From: Anaeromyces robustus
Taxonomy: Eukaryota; Neocallimastigomycota; Neocallimastigomycetes; Neocallimastigales; Neocallimastigaceae
Length of the DNA stretch: 37,112 nucleotides
NCBI GenBank assembly: GCA_002104895.1
Contig: MCFG01000527.1
Span: 1-37,112, forward strand
Direction: 5' to 3'
Part shown: positions 5,332-32,800 of the stretch, piece by piece
Position numbering within the stretch: position 1 is the stretch's first letter
Layout: every line of letters begins with the position of its first letter
Program-made: the position numbers and the translations under genes
Notes under the pieces: generated by a model
Told to the model about the DNA's origin: nothing
The model's database searches: none
What the model saw: the letters and a program-made list of their open reading frames with translations, nothing else

Positions 5332-5402
5332 AGCAGCGGTATGTTTCGATCATACGACCTGTGGGTTATGAGCCCACCACGCTTCCACTGCGCTACGCTG
5401 CT
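5332..5402 (-). tRNA. initiator tRNA-Met (CAT), copy 1
   Basis: This 71-nt cloverleaf has a perfect 7-bp acceptor stem (AGCAGCG/CGCTGCT) and anticodon loop CTCATAA. Three features mark it as the initiator type: the first acceptor pair is A:T, the anticodon stem has three consecutive G:C pairs (GGG/CCC), and the T loop reads ATCGAAA instead of TTCGANN. Its function is cytosolic start-codon decoding. There is no intron. A T run just downstream on the minus strand suits Pol III termination. A family A LTR starts 64 bp upstream of its 5' end. Confidence 0.95.
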
Positions 5403-5466
5403 CTTGTTGAAATATTTTTATATTGTGTAATATTAATTTATATAAAATCTAACCTATAAATTTTTT

Positions 5467-6700
5467 TGTCTCAAATATTAGTGGATTTAAAATTGAAATT
5501 CATTAGTAGATCAATTGCAATTAAATTTCGTTATTGCCAAAATCACTTAAAATTCGATTTTTAATAAAATAAATGAATATAAATGAATATTTAAATTATA
5601 AAAGGTTTAGACTATTAAAATAAATTTCTATCAACTTAATTTAATTTTTATTAAATTAATAAAAATAATATGAAAAAAAAAAAATAACGATAATTCCACA
5701 AATATATTCAAGATTTTCTCCTCTTTGCTTTGATTCTATGCTCATTGAGAAGCTTTGTTCGAGAATTATAGCACATCTTAATTTCAGCTCATTTGGACTA
5801 CTAGTTCTCAAGATATTGGACTTTAAAAAATTTTAAATATATAAAATATAATTTAATTATTTAAAGTGTCTACAAATATAAAATCTTTATATCAATTATT
5901 ACTTTATTAATCATAATAATACAGAATTAGGTATTAATAATATCTAAATGTTATTTAAATTAATAGTTTTAGATATGTTATTTAACACATATTAATTAAT
6001 TATTTTAAAATTCTAAAGAATTCCTTAGAATTCTAAAAATTTCTAAAGATTAAAAATCTTAAATGATTTTAGACGTTTAAAATAGCTATTTTATTAATAT
6101 TCAAATATACAAATTATAATAAAAAATTAAAGATATTATTAACTATTTTATATATAATTAATTAGTTAGTATAGTGAATAATATTATAATTAGAAATCTA
6201 ATTCATAGATTATAAATCTTATTTTCTATAAAATTATTAATAATTATATAGTAGTTTTATTATTAGATTCTTATTAATATTATTTTATTCATATATTTTA
6301 TATAGATCTATATTTGTATGCATATATTAATATTAAATCATATTAATTAAATGTATTTGTAATTATTACTTTAGAATTAGTATAAATAGGAATTGAATTC
6401 TCAATTTCTTATAATGTTCGTAAGATAAAAAATTTGATAACTTAATAACTTAATATTTTGATAGTTTAATAACTTTTTAATTTAATAATTATTGATTATA
6501 ATAATTATTATTTTTATATTTTATTAAATTTTTTATTAATATTTAAAAATAATTTATTAAAATTAATACTAACCTTTAACAAATGTTTGATTGATTATTT
6601 AGAATTTTTGTGTGATAATTTTAATTATATAAATTTTCATTAATTAATTATTATAATTATTAATTCACATCTTGACATGACCAATTTCCTAAACCAAACT
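5467..6700 (+). mobile_element. family A LTR (A4), 3'-truncated, 64 bp upstream of iMet copy 1
   Basis: It starts TGTCTCAAATATTAG, corresponding to TGTCGCGAATATTAG at the U3 end of other copies. It contains the conserved core at about 5682-5820 and a TATA box at 6381-6388, which sets plus-strand orientation, divergent from the tRNA. It ends near ACCAAACT, missing roughly the last 16 bp of the family end. A short inverted repeat (CCAAACTT near 6693 and AAGTTTGG near 6764) sits at the truncation. It is a noncoding solo LTR. Confidence 0.65.
6381..6388 (+). promoter_or_regulatory. TATA box in family A LTR A4
   Basis: TATAAATA lies within the LTR. The equivalent site occurs on the minus strand in copies A1 (8511-8518), A2 (9570-9577) and A3 (35157-35164), which fixes the orientation of each copy. 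Confidence 0.45.
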
Positions 6701-6849
6701 TTATATTTTTTTTAAATATTATTAAGATTTAGATTTAAATAATATTTATAACATATACTCAAAAAGTTTGGTCCAAAAAATAATTATTAATAATAATTTA
6801 CTCTATTTAATTAATGAGAAATTAAATACACACAAATAAGGTTAACTTG

Positions 6850-6980
6850 CTATATACAAGAGTTTTCGTTATGTTTCATTCTAAAGTTAAGCTTATTGAG
6901 AAGTTCTGCACGCTGTCTACAACATATCGAATTTTTATCCAATTAGTATCATTATTCAAAGAGATATTATACAAAAAACA
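6850..6980 (+). repeat. isolated, diverged LTR core module
   Basis: The segment TTGAGAAGTTCTGC ... CTACAACATATCGAATTT ... AGAGATATTAT matches the family A core in plus orientation. Its flanks are not recognisably family A, so this is a remnant of another, diverged LTR. Confidence 0.45.
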
Positions 6981-7276
6981 TTTATATAAAAATTAGATAA
7001 ATTTTTAAAGGATTCTTTTTTAATATATTAATGTTACATTAATTCAAAAGAAATATTATTAATAATTTTATAAAATATATAATAATAATTAAATTAATAA
7101 TTATTGTAATATAAATTTAAATTATCTTGAAATTTTTATAATTAAAATTTATTTAATAAAATATATAAATATTGATATTGATAGAAATATTAATGTAAAA
7201 ATTATAAATATATGTAAAAGATATAAATTTAAGAAATACTGTATAAATTTTCTTACAATTCTTGAATTTTCCAGTA

Positions 7277-7430
7277 ATTATTATTATTATTATTATTATT
7301 ATTATTATTATTATTATTATTATTATTATTATTATTATTATTATTATTATTATTATTATTATTATTATTATTATTATTATTATTATTATTATTATTATTA
7401 TTATTATTATTATTATTATTATTATTATTT
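7277..7430. repeat. (ATT)n microsatellite, about 51 copies
   Basis: An uninterrupted trinucleotide run of about 153 bp. It produces an artificial poly-isoleucine reading frame that is not a gene. The length is likely to vary between strains and is prone to assembly error. Confidence 0.9.
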
Positions 7431-30428: not shown

Positions 30429-30493
30429 TAAAAATTTATAGTTTAGATTTTATATAAATTAATATTACACAGGATTCACAAAATCTCAATAAA

Positions 30494-30564
30494 AGCAGCG
30501 TAGCGCAGTGGAAGCGTGGTGGGCTCATAACCCACAGGTCGTATGATCGAAACATACCGCTGCT
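30494..30564 (+). tRNA. initiator tRNA-Met (CAT), copy 4, with uninterrupted 5' flank
   Basis: Identical mature sequence, and the only iMet copy on the plus strand. Its 64-bp upstream flank (30430-30493) shares AAAAATTTATAG and TTAGATTTTATATAAATTAA, continuing to ATTACACA, with iMet copies 1, 2 and 5. No LTR is present beyond it, making it the empty-site counterpart of those loci. Confidence 0.95.
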
Positions 30565-32258
30565 AATAAATTTTTAAAAATTTATTTTTAATAATTTATT
30601 TATTTATTAATTATTATTTTTATTAATATTTTATAGGTATATATATAGATTATTTAAATTTTTATTTTTTTAAAATATACATCTATAAATATTATCTTTA
30701 TGATGTAATAATTTTGAAATACAAATAAAAAAAAAAAATAATAAAAATATATAAATAATCAAAAATGAAAAATAAACAAAAAATTCAAATATTAAAACCT
30801 TTTTATATATTTATTATGAAGATATATATGTTATTATTATGAGTCATAATAATTTTATATTTTTAATAATAAAAAAAAGTTATTAATTATAAAGTATTTT
30901 CATAATTAGAATTATTATTATAATTATTGTAATATATATTATTCATTATATATTCTTTTTCTTTTTCTTTTTCTATTAATTAGTATCTTTTTATGTATTT
31001 TTTTTATTTTTTAATTTATTTTTAATATTTCTAATATTTATTATTTTTTATCTTTGAATTAATATTTCTTTATTCATCTTTAATTAATTTTTCCTTTTTT
31101 TTTCCTTTTTTCCTTTTTATATTTATAATATATGTATTCTTTCGATATACATATATTTATTTATGTATATTTTATTTCATTTTATTTTATTTTTAAGTTA
31201 TTTTAATTAAATAAAAAAGAAAACCAAAAAAAAAAAAAAATAAAAGAAATATTAATTATTAAAATTATTATAATTATAAAAATTAATATAAATATATATA
31301 AATATATAAAAATTGATTTTCATTAATTTTAATTTATAATAATAAATTATTTATTTGATCATCATTAATTTAATTATTTTTTTTTATTATTTATCTTTTT
31401 CCTTTTTTCCTTTTGAAAAAAAAGTATAAAAAATAATAATTATAAAAAATATAATATTTAATATTTATCATTTAATTATTGAAAATATCTCATATTTATA
31501 AAAGATAAATAAAAATATTAAGTTTGTTATTGTTAAAAAAATATAACTATTTATTAATTTATTAATTTAATTATAACATGAAACGTTTTATTTTCCTATT
31601 AATAAATTATTAATTATTAATTATTAATTATTAATTATTAATTATTATATGATACCTTTTCTTTTAATTTTTTTTTCCTATTAAAATATGAATTTTTACT
31701 TTTCATAATTTATAATGATAGACCATTAATAATTAAATAAATTAATAAATAATTACTTTTTATTTTTTTTTCTTTTTTTTTTTTTTCCTTTTTTTTTTCT
31801 TTTTCTTTTTTTTTATTTTCTATTTAAAATTTTATTTACTGGGAAAATAATAATATAAAAATAATAAAAATAATAATTTTAAATATTAATTAATTATATA
31901 TAAAGATATATTGAGATATCATTAAAAAATTATAAAATAAAAATACCATTAAAAAAATTATAAAAAGTTTTCTATTTATTAATTTTATTTTATTGGTTAC
32001 TGTGTAAACTTTTACAAAGTAATAAAAAAAAATTATTTTTTCTGTATAATTTAAAATTTTTGTTGTATTATAAGAATGATTTAAATGAATTATATAAAAT
32101 ATTTAAATAATTACCAATAAATATATATTTTTTTTTTTACTTAATAATAAAAATATTTTTTAATATATTAAATAGTAAATAAAAGAATTTTTTTTTTTTT
32201 TTTTTCATTTCTTCATTTTATAAAAAATTTGGTATATAAAAAAAAATGAAAATTATTT
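30565..32258. other. gene-free AT spacer with a TTAATTA tandem repeat
   Basis: No gene is seen. About six copies of a 7-bp TTAATTA unit lie at 31607-31648. Long T runs and C/T-rich patches occur near 31085-31115 and 31765-31815. Confidence 0.4.
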
Positions 32259-32329
32259 AGCAGCGGTATGTTTCGATCATACGACCTGTGGGTTATGAGC
32301 CCACCACGCTTCCACTGCGCTACGCTGCT
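32259..32329 (-). tRNA. initiator tRNA-Met (CAT), copy 5
   Basis: Identical to the other four copies. The upstream flank matches copies 1 and 2 for about 65 bp and then joins a family A LTR. Confidence 0.95.
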
Positions 32330-32394
32330 TTCCTTGAAATTTTATGAATCTTGTGTAATATTAATTTATATAAATCTAACCTATAAATTTTTTT

Positions 32395-32800
32395 TGTCGT
32401 GAATATTAATGGATTTAAAATTGAAATTCACTAATAATAGATCAATTGAAATAAAAAATTTCATTATTGATAAAATCACTTAAAGAAATAAATCGAATTT
32501 TCATTATTATTATTATAAGAATAAATAATACTAGGAAATATATTAGAAAAAAAAAAAAAAAGAAATAAAAGGGTTTGGACTATTTCAATAATTTTTATTA
32601 ATATTAAATTTAACCCTTAAGAAATAAATTAAAAAATTAAAAAATAAAGAAAAAATTATGATATTTCTATGAATAATGAAGATATTCCCATACTTCATTC
32701 TGATTTTTAAATTTTTCTGAATAGTTCTGCTTAAGATCCACAATATATCTAATTCTCATCCAATTAAGGTAATCATTTCAAGAGATGTTATCCAAAAAAA
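32395..32800 (+). mobile_element. family A LTR fragment (A8), 65 bp upstream of iMet copy 5
   Basis: It begins TGTCGTGAATATTAATGG, keeps AGGGTTTGGACTATTT and the TTTAACCCTTAA segment, and has a strongly diverged core (about 32650-32795, with ATAGTTCTGCTTAAGATCCA). Beyond the core it is not recognisable. Same divergent orientation as the other tRNA-linked copies. Confidence 0.55.

Follow-up and report, generated by a model that had tools for sequence, protein, structure and literature searches.

Our analysis confirmed that retroelements of Anaeromyces robustus have inserted at fixed distances upstream of tRNA genes, and that they have done so genome-wide. The insertions fall at two sharp distances. 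This pattern suggests that the RNA polymerase III (Pol III) machinery serves as a common guide, read from two positions by two kinds of integrase. The window, the whole 37,112-bp stretch that was analyzed (contig MCFG01000527.1), comes from a genome of 70.2 Mb with very high AT content, in which it forms a single contig. LTR tips were paired with tRNA genes genome-wide by their coordinates (94 tRNA 5' ends against 363 tips). The samples covered 100 of the 158 tips of LTR family C, 100 of the 231 copies of a pseudo-tRNA repeat (P1), and 63 of the 2,506 first-look tRNA candidates; pair counts include segmental copies.

Twenty-eight tip-tRNA pairs were found within 100 bp upstream. In all 28 the tip faces the tRNA, and all 28 are confined to two distance windows, each 4-5 bp wide: family B (13 pairs) lies only at 13-16 bp, measured from the true tip, and families C and EF (15 pairs) lie only at 64-68 bp. 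None of the 363 listed tips falls at 17-63 bp or 69-399 bp upstream of the 94 tRNAs, and none falls on the gene side of the tRNA 5' end within 300 bp (bins -300 to -1). Worn tips missed by the tip patterns scatter slightly more widely (17-24 and 69-72 bp). Excluding the tRNAs of the present window leaves 10 B and 13 C/EF pairs. When pairs at tRNAs and at P1 are combined, the split of families between the two distances is perfect (14 B vs. 22 non-B pairs; p ~3e-10, duplicates included). A preliminary description of the window had proposed as its test that distances at different isoacceptors should peak sharply near -18 and -65, and the peaks among the 94 tRNAs are indeed sharp. Its proposal of two targeting mechanisms gains support from the clean family split and from the different target-site duplications (4 bp vs. 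5 bp) described below.

All 11 tRNA genes of the window, called with ARAGORN and Rfam (both programs unless stated), are real. Family B occupies the near distance at tRNA-Gly1 (15856..15926, minus strand), where the 5' tip of a solo LTR (15942..17223, plus strand) lies 15 bp away; at tRNA-Gly2 (20414..20484, plus), also at 15 bp, with an LTR of 1,817 bp, above the usual length (18582..20398, minus); at tRNA-Asn2 (12252..12325, minus; Rfam, with an ARAGORN start of 12251), where a worn 5' tip (12343..12480, plus) lies at 17 bp, or 20 bp to TACAAT; and at tRNA-iMet3 (29105..29176, minus), with a 5' tip (29191..29330, plus) at 14 bp. The distances first reported for these genes (18, 18, 20, and 17 bp, respectively) are recovered when measured to TACAATATT; the intact LTR begins 3 bp earlier (TGATACAATATT), which gives the true values above. 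The constant orientation claimed for B also holds, with the 5' LTR end toward the gene in every pair found. Since the Gly1 and Gly2 loci are an inverted duplication, they are counted once. Two partial B LTRs lie head to head at 17797..18576 (5' tips at 17797, plus, and 18576, minus); they are now some 1.8 kb away from the genes of Gly1 and Gly2, and other LTR sequence lies in between. Further along, positions 22435-24348 encode an M13 peptidase whose best matches are Orpinomyces, Anaeromyces, Neocallimastix, and Piromyces proteins (49-54% identity to the best named record per genus; 7,999 candidates scored).

At the far distance, worn 5' tips of family C (all plus strand) lie 64 bp from tRNA-iMet1 (5331..5402, minus; tip 5467..5600), 65 bp from tRNA-iMet2 (7639..7710, minus; tip 7776..7860), and 65 bp from tRNA-iMet5 (32258..32329, minus; tip 32395..32500). 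These three are not independent, because their flank up to about -65 is common to them and to tRNA-iMet4 (30494..30565, plus; ARAGORN), which has no C tip at -65. Another worn C tip (14236..14475, plus) lies about 70-72 bp from tRNA-Asn4 (14092..14165, minus), 72 being the first matched base. The far distances of the preliminary description stand for all of these genes and for Asn3 (64 bp) and Asn1 (65 bp), with a revision of family at the last two, whose tips do not belong to C and represent opposite ends of a single different LTR of 593 bp, named EF. The E end, apparently truncated (13003..13120, plus), lies beside tRNA-Asn3 (12865..12938, minus). The F end of a 593-bp solo LTR (10622..11214, plus) points toward tRNA-Asn1 (11280..11353, plus); this LTR has the 5-bp duplication TCAAA on each side and sits exactly at the boundary of an earlier C LTR (9284..10616, minus; tip TGTCGCG at 10616). 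A second C LTR, read from the sequence at about 8250-9278, is in tandem with the latter. As read, the 5-bp flanks of the C LTR behind Asn1 do not match (TTTAA vs. TCAAA).

The B LTR (TGATAC...TGCATCA, modal length 1,217 bp) begins with TG and ends with CA, and full-length copies have a tip-to-tip spacing of 10,280-10,373 bp, so that the whole element including the second LTR spans about 11.5 kb. Among the 95 B tips with flank, 51 face a target within 30 bp (34 a tRNA, 17 a tRNA-like repeat), 49 of them at 12-17 bp and the other two at 21 and 24 bp; the tips adjoin tRNAs of 11 amino acids as well as four tRNA-like repeats. The other 44 have no target within 30 bp: nine have one farther out, five are 3' LTRs, and three of the remaining 30 stay unexplained. 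Five B tips with a common flank ending in GAAGCTAAGCAGGGGGATTT were first read as facing a 5S gene. This "5S-like" sequence was rejected as a Pol III target, as the flank reads as the purine-rich close of the internal part, next to the 3' LTR in full-length copies; the C159:75252/85645 pair has CGTT at both outer ends.

B faces Pol III genes with its 5' LTR end only, and none of 61 B 3' ends faces any of the 94 tRNAs within 100 bp. From a sample of 29 B LTRs, six that formed the inner LTR ends of full copies were left out, and exact 4-bp target duplications were found in 13 of the 23 usable LTRs (mean 1.0 and maximum 6 in 10,000 re-pairings); four of the 13 are single-base runs, and 10 of the 23 have no matching 4-bp duplication. 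The duplications vary by locus (TGGT, AACG, ATAA, TTAC, ATTG, AAGA, CTTT). The duplications of the yeast element Ty3 are usually 5 bp. The B integrase has H2C2 (PF17921) and rve (PF00665) domains, and its core stops about 590 bp short of the tip of the 3' LTR (C270). Residues 103-458 of the 488 analyzed match the solved Ty3 intasome chain (E ~5e-18). The alignment to this chain (7q5b) stops 30 residues before the end of the B protein, while the Ty3 chain runs 121 further, and no Pfam chromodomain was detected in the B integrase at E 0.01; judged by its sequence, the protein thus appears to lack even a vestigial chromodomain after its C-terminal domain. B encodes a Ty3/Gypsy-type integrase. The LTR ends, the duplications, and the position of the zinc-binding and rve domains close to the 3' LTR, as expected of the RT-RH-IN order, class family B as a Ty3/Gypsy LTR retrotransposon.

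The C LTR, mostly 1,329-1,342 bp, likewise faces Pol III genes in one orientation, with its 5' LTR end, and none of 100 listed other ends (106 in all) faces a tRNA or a P1 copy at 100 bp or less. Twelve of the 100 listed C tips are placed at the far distance (five at tRNAs, four at P1, three within B). The other 88, like most EF copies, have no context assigned. Matches to the rve integrase domain lie inside three C copies, 6,447-6,463 bp from the C tip; one of them, on C409, has a different score and may come from another element rather than from C. Near P1, rve matches have no common offset. Either end of the EF LTR may face the gene, and the LTR-to-LTR spacing of 1,251-1,255 bp in 16 neighboring pairs leaves an internal part of about 660 bp. 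EF is a short element that may be TRIM-like, TRIM being the class of short LTR elements without coding capacity. All three C/EF cases that were read (C136, C213, where the duplication is TTTAA, and the Asn1 EF) have 5-bp duplications.

Nested insertions and tRNA-like repeats bear on where the distance is measured from. Of 97 B copies, 10 contain a listed C, E, or F tip at 50-53 bp from the B tip, and no other position in the first 500 bp of B holds a listed one, which indicates that the distance ruler starts at the gene. At C136, a C LTR splits B after 51 bp, and B continues past the 5-bp duplication with 140 of 140 bases identical. A before/after pair is provided by C378:47090 (EF within B) and C219:23362 (same B, no insert). 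The distances seen for tRNAs recur at the tRNA-like repeats, which possess box A and box B; at P1, all eight tips within 100 bp (100 listed copies) lie in the two distance windows, B at 14 bp and C/E at 62-69 bp. Rfam gave zero matches to the pseudo-tRNAs up to E 0.5 (11 loci), so they are labeled tRNA-like by the box A/box B reading alone. The P1 copy of the window (2361..2435, end approximate, plus; sequence pattern, boxes by eye) has no tips in either distance window. A gag/protease ORF of another LTR element (198..1532, plus; Pfam Retrotrans_gag and Ty3_capsid above cut-off, weaker zf-CCHC and RVP_2) perhaps belongs to the element whose LTR holds P1. Taken jointly with the two-ruler explanation given below, it is very likely that the signal is the Pol III promoter and no particular tRNA.

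The distances might have been inherited if a small number of ancestral tRNA loci, already carrying elements, had been copied around the genome. Clear duplicates exist (Gly1/Gly2, C219/C378, C213/C353, C39/C632, two C271 Trp loci, and the iMet1/2/4/5 flanks), so segmental copying of one locus does explain a few pairs. The rest differ in isotype, flank, and target-site duplication, as the preliminary description anticipated in arguing that shared ancestry was insufficient; B stands beside tRNAs of many amino acids with differing spacers and duplications, and four tRNA-like repeats carry it at the same distance. The unique duplications at many loci are decisive here, and we regard inheritance as largely refuted and very improbable. 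No more credible is broad integration followed by selection that spared only harmless positions, to which we give the slimmest chance: insertions that fall within a tRNA gene or separate TFIIIB from the start would probably be harmful, but this does not readily explain the emptiness at 69-399 bp, nor why there are zero B pairs at -65 and zero C/EF pairs at -15 (14 B, 22 non-B pairs).

For the far distance, C and EF could instead favor a T-rich site at about -60 to -65, including ATTTTTAAA near B position 44-51, with the tRNA being incidental. A run of at least four T is present in the last 14 bp before the tip at 17 of 21 distinct far sites, and tip-free flanks, many of which are B LTRs, are also T-rich at -51 to -65 (48 of 61, vs. 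28% of all 14-bp windows). However, T runs are common across this AT-rich genome, yet 15 of 15 C/EF pairs within 100 bp lie at 64-68 bp; four of the 21 sites lack the run (C489, C151:68447, C271:9169, C130:85588), and the same offset holds at P1. Sequence guidance is therefore improbable as the whole account, although a local T-run preference may contribute. Somewhat less improbable, but still unlikely, is that the far site marks the border of a nucleosome lying ahead of Pol III genes. Ty1 is described as using such nucleosomes in the relevant passages of a review (PMC5911963), and -65 is just past the TFIIIB footprint expected from yeast; against this, Ty1 spreads over about 1 kb, whereas a single few-bp site is used here with no listed tip at 69-399 bp, and C inserts in one orientation only. 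Because of this precision of a few bp, we favor a protein tether for the far distance.

Several known systems resemble one of the two distances, as described in the source passages cited. The insertion site of Ty3 in Saccharomyces cerevisiae precedes the tRNA start by 1-4 bp, which places it about 15 bp away from the mature tRNA (PMC5911963 Table 1; PMC5006619); Ty3 uses both orientations and has a chromodomain that contacts Brf1 (PMC5911963; PMC8632968). B is similar as an LTR element with a related integrase and a comparable distance, but differs in its 4-bp duplications, single orientation, and lack of a detected chromodomain. Tj1 of Schizosaccharomyces japonicus, an LTR element at most 12 bp upstream of tRNA genes (PMC4600332), shares the near site and a fixed orientation, although it runs with the Pol III gene, and B and C run opposite. 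The dictyostelid DGLT-A is, like B, a Ty3/Gypsy element without chromodomain at about 15 bp (PMC5006619), but in D. discoideum it lies at 13-33 bp in either orientation (PMC5911963), and those passages (PMC5006619; PMC5911963) name no LTR partner family near -65. A second, farther window is known from dictyostelid TRE5 (40-54 bp, one orientation, with an ORF1 that binds TFIIIB proteins) and NLTR-B (39-64 bp; PMC5911963). These are non-LTR elements that use target-primed reverse transcription, whereas C/EF have paired LTR ends and 5-bp duplications at 62-69 bp. Finally, the LTR elements Ty1, Ty2, and Ty4 spread over a window of about 1 kb upstream of Pol III genes, unlike the single few-bp site seen here, and the same review table (PMC5911963 Table 1) includes no narrow LTR window near -65.

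Starting from the observed positions, family split, orientation, duplications, and nesting, and from the class of the B integrase, we propose that several LTR families of this fungus integrate at positions set by the Pol III pre-initiation complex via two separate rulers, an explanation we consider very probable. The near ruler would be read through TFIIIB as in Ty3, by putative binding of the B integrase to TFIIIB. The far ruler, used by C (one orientation) and EF (either) at 62-69 bp upstream, may be set by the upstream face of TFIIIB or by a factor that TFIIIB holds in place. Each ruler would keep the gene as its origin after an insertion, and the next element would enter at the same offset, within or just ahead of the earlier one, building LTR stacks.

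Measured from the tRNA, the insertion centers are at about 12.6 and 63.2 bp, and their midpoint (38 bp) may be near the expected position of TFIIIB, a spacing borrowed from yeast that may not be that of this fungus. Two-sided docking on TFIIIB could follow. Only tentatively, we suggest that two integrase lineages sit on the two sides of TFIIIB, with sites about 25 bp either side of the center, and that a TATA-like box in the B tip rebuilds the docking site. About half of the B copies have TATATAA in the tip, read on the strand of the tRNA; once inserted, it lies at about -31 to -37. Promoter mimicry by a TATA-like box was not significant against shuffles: a TATA-like box lies at -45 to -28 in 14 of 34 distinct flanks not labeled B, some of them worn and B-like (shuffle mean 10.4; 57 of 500 reach 14).

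In yeasts and amoebae, LTR elements are known to target Pol III genes, either at one near-start site per element or across a broad zone. The present genome combines two sharp LTR windows 50 bp apart, each with its own families and duplication length, with B and C additionally each in one orientation. Among the gut-fungus papers listed by literature searches, no title or abstract opening concerns Pol III-targeted insertion, and our findings extend this behavior to a deep-branching fungal group. They offer a natural comparison for asking what part of the Pol III complex's surface determines the site and whether orientation follows docking. Stacked insertions at tRNA genes could also record element history: if the docking model is true, each insertion would renew its target, and the stacks ahead of tRNA genes, in arrival order, would be a readable record of invasion.

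We searched 70.17 Mb of the Anaeromyces robustus genome (769 contigs) for the LTR ends, or tips, of the retrotransposon families B, C and EF (E and F being the two ends of the EF LTR), and paired their coordinates with 94 distinct tRNA 5' ends (63 Rfam tRNAs, the 63 scored of 2,506 candidates, plus 13 Asn, 16 iMet and 2 Gly). The B pattern (≤2 mismatches) was found at 97 places, the C pattern (≤3 mismatches) at 158, of which 100 were listed, and the E and F patterns at 87 and 79; controls (the reversed pattern for B) gave 0 matches. Among the tips listed, 28 tip-tRNA pairs lie ≤100 bp upstream of these tRNAs, and in all 28 the tip faces the tRNA: 13 pairs are at 13-16 bp and involve B only, and the other 15 are at 64-68 bp and involve C (5), E (4) or F (6). 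The genome-wide distance plot proposed in the preliminary description, which had placed retroelements at two fixed distances upstream of tRNA genes, is therefore sharp for the 94 tRNAs. No listed tip falls 100-399 bp upstream of them or 1-300 bp to the gene side; beyond that, up to 2 kb, each 100-bp bin contains between 0 and 9 tips when both orientations are pooled. Both kinds of tip are present at two tRNAs, and 10 (B) and 13 (C/E/F) pairs remain once the window's own tRNAs are removed. Targeting of tRNA genes at two distances, hereafter insertion window 1 (B, ~15 bp) and insertion window 2 (C/EF, ~65 bp), is real, strong and genome-wide.

The distances first reported for the window (B ~18 bp; A or C ~65 bp) were reproduced on remeasuring; the intact B tip, TGATACAATATTCCC, begins 3 bases closer to the tRNA than the point from which they had been taken. 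At the far position the distances stand, and the assignment to family A or C fails for the tips at the genes Asn1 and Asn3, which belong to a third family, EF. The E end (TGTAATGATATGG) and the F end (TGTAAAGATTTGG) lie 593 bp apart, pair after pair, and together are one LTR. Neighbouring same-strand E tips are spaced 1,251-1,255 bp in 16 pairs, so full EF copies would hold only ~660 bp inside. EF also forms chains of LTRs ~1,254 bp apart (C505:20706-24488), with pairs on contigs C59, C219, C295, C397, C571 and C596.

Worn tips missed by the patterns were found for B at Asn2 (17 bp) and for C at iMet1, iMet2 and iMet5 (64-65 bp), Asn4 (70-72 bp) and C271:9169 (69 bp). A tip in insertion window 2 is present at 23 of the 84 tRNAs with ≥100 bp of flank, 21 of the 23 at 64-67 bp and from five families, a descriptive count, as the motif list was drawn up after inspecting tRNA flanks. 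Other LTR-like starts (TGTTAAGAAATG, TGATACGAACC, TGATACAGACTC, TGATAAATTC and TGTAATAATTC) lie 13-17 bp from tRNAs, so several families probably use insertion window 1.

The window contains 11 tRNA genes (5 iMet, 4 Asn, 2 Gly), and its GC content per kb is mostly 9-20% outside coding stretches. A large inverted duplication (15824-20516; longest arms 396 nt, 94% complementary) comprises Gly1 and Gly2 together with their B LTRs. The best named relatives of an M13 peptidase gene (22435-24348) come from anaerobic gut fungi, and a (TAT)n run of ~150 bp occupies 7279-7430. Elsewhere in the genome, six copies of a tRNA-Glu/tRNA-Arg gene pair (C151, C181, C446) have both genes in one direction with 6-12 bp between them, an arrangement that looks as if they were co-transcribed.

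Flanking sequence was available for 95 of the 97 B tips. An ARAGORN tRNA is faced by 34 of them, 15-24 bp away when measured to TACAAT, and adding tRNA-like repeats (17 tips) gives a target within 30 bp for 51 of 95; from the true tip, 49 of these 51 are at 12-17 bp and the other two at 21 and 24 bp. In these repeats, P1 to P4, flanks read by eye have box A in register, giving a distance of 15-16 bp. For nine of the other 44 tips a facing tRNA or P1 lies at a greater distance; of the remaining 35, five belong to full copies as their 3' LTRs. Inspection of the flanks by eye placed 7 of the rest against the end of a B LTR, 11 against a repeat with an LTR-like terminal CA, 8 against a repeat flank that lacks the CA and one against a worn P1; three (C723, C767, C282) are unexplained. 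On contig C271 the distance from tRNA-Trp to a second B is an exact sum (15 + 1,281 + 4 = 1,300 bp). On contig C151 the duplication TCAT is common to an LTR of ~670 bp and the B that lies beyond it, which indicates that two elements used the same nucleotide. A Trp-like tRNA gene with anticodon ACA (C526:7935-8006) has a B 15 bp upstream.

The repeat P1, which has box A and box B and one copy at 2361-2435 of the window, provides an independent target. It has 231 copies genome-wide (100 listed). The 100 listed copies have eight tips within the 100 bp upstream of them, all eight facing, so that P1 is a target for B (14 bp) and for C or EF (C or E at 62, 65, 65, 65, 67, 67 and 69 bp); no further tip comes closer than 270 bp. 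The two of the eight that are on C397 may represent a single event that was duplicated. Among the listed copies, 16 of 18 same-strand neighbour spacings are 4.41-4.58 kb, as if each LTR of another retroelement carried a P1; the gag at 198-1532 of the window may belong to that element.

Nested insertions indicate from where insertion window 2 is counted. Ten of the 97 B copies contain a listed C, E or F tip at an internal position of 50-53 bp, and none was found elsewhere in the first 500 bp. On contig C136 a C LTR splits a B LTR after 51 bp, and B then resumes with a 5-bp duplication and 140/140 identical bases; at C378:47090 an EF lies within a B that is uninterrupted in its twin at C219:23362. 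B was thus the earlier arrival and pushed the old upstream DNA away, and insertion window 2 was still counted from the tRNA or tRNA-like sequence, at 65-66 bp. Near-identical tRNA flanks occur on the contig pairs C213/C353, C219/C378 and C39/C632, one pair differing by an EF insertion; these are perhaps haplotypes or recent duplications.

Both ends could be read for 29 B LTRs, of which 23 were usable after leaving out 6 inner ends of full copies. Four bases match on both sides in 13 of the 23 (4 of the 13 being runs of one base), compared with a mean of 1.0 and a maximum of 6 in 10,000 re-pairings. C and EF have 5-base duplications at C136, C213 and Asn1; by eye, the flanks of the C LTR behind Asn1 differ (TTTAA and TCAAA). 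Every B and C pair faces the Pol III gene by one and the same end, and the opposite end faces a gene within 100 bp in 0/61 cases for B and 0/100 listed for C. The direction of B was set by the integrase frame (C270, C136), and that of C rests on three copies with matches to integrase at 6.45 kb inside; the facing end is thus the 5' LTR end, with the elements running away from the gene. EF faces the gene with either E or F.

A B copy has an open frame with Integrase_H2C2 and rve at its end. Among solved chains, its integrase comes closest to foamy virus integrase, with the Ty3 intasome 7q5b ranking lower. The rve core ends ~590 bp ahead of the 3' LTR, the Ty3/Gypsy order, and no Ty3-like chromodomain was detected by sequence after the integrase. 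Tip-to-tip spacings in full copies are 10,280 bp (C270) and 10,373 bp (C159), giving an element of ~11.5 kb.

Yeast Ty3 is positioned by TFIIIB, described as bound at -15 to -32 from the start (PMC8632968), and Pol III is reported to start 10-12 bp ahead of the mature tRNA (PMC5911963, Table 1 footnote; PMC5006619); TFIIIB would therefore cover about -25 to -44 (tRNA-gene targeting is also treated in PMC4600332). The point halfway between the two insertion centres lies 38 bp from the tRNA. With yeast spacing, insertion window 1 would lie just downstream of TFIIIB and insertion window 2 just upstream. Taking the start position from yeast, we infer that the integrases of the two windows could dock on both sides of one TFIIIB complex. 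None of the LTR elements in Table 1 of PMC5911963 has a narrow window close to -65, and no report of one that does was found among titles and abstract openings on gut fungi or similar targeting, where subscription journals are thinly covered. The near window is a further case of known behaviour; the narrow far window for LTR elements and the split of families between the two windows are a new variation on it.
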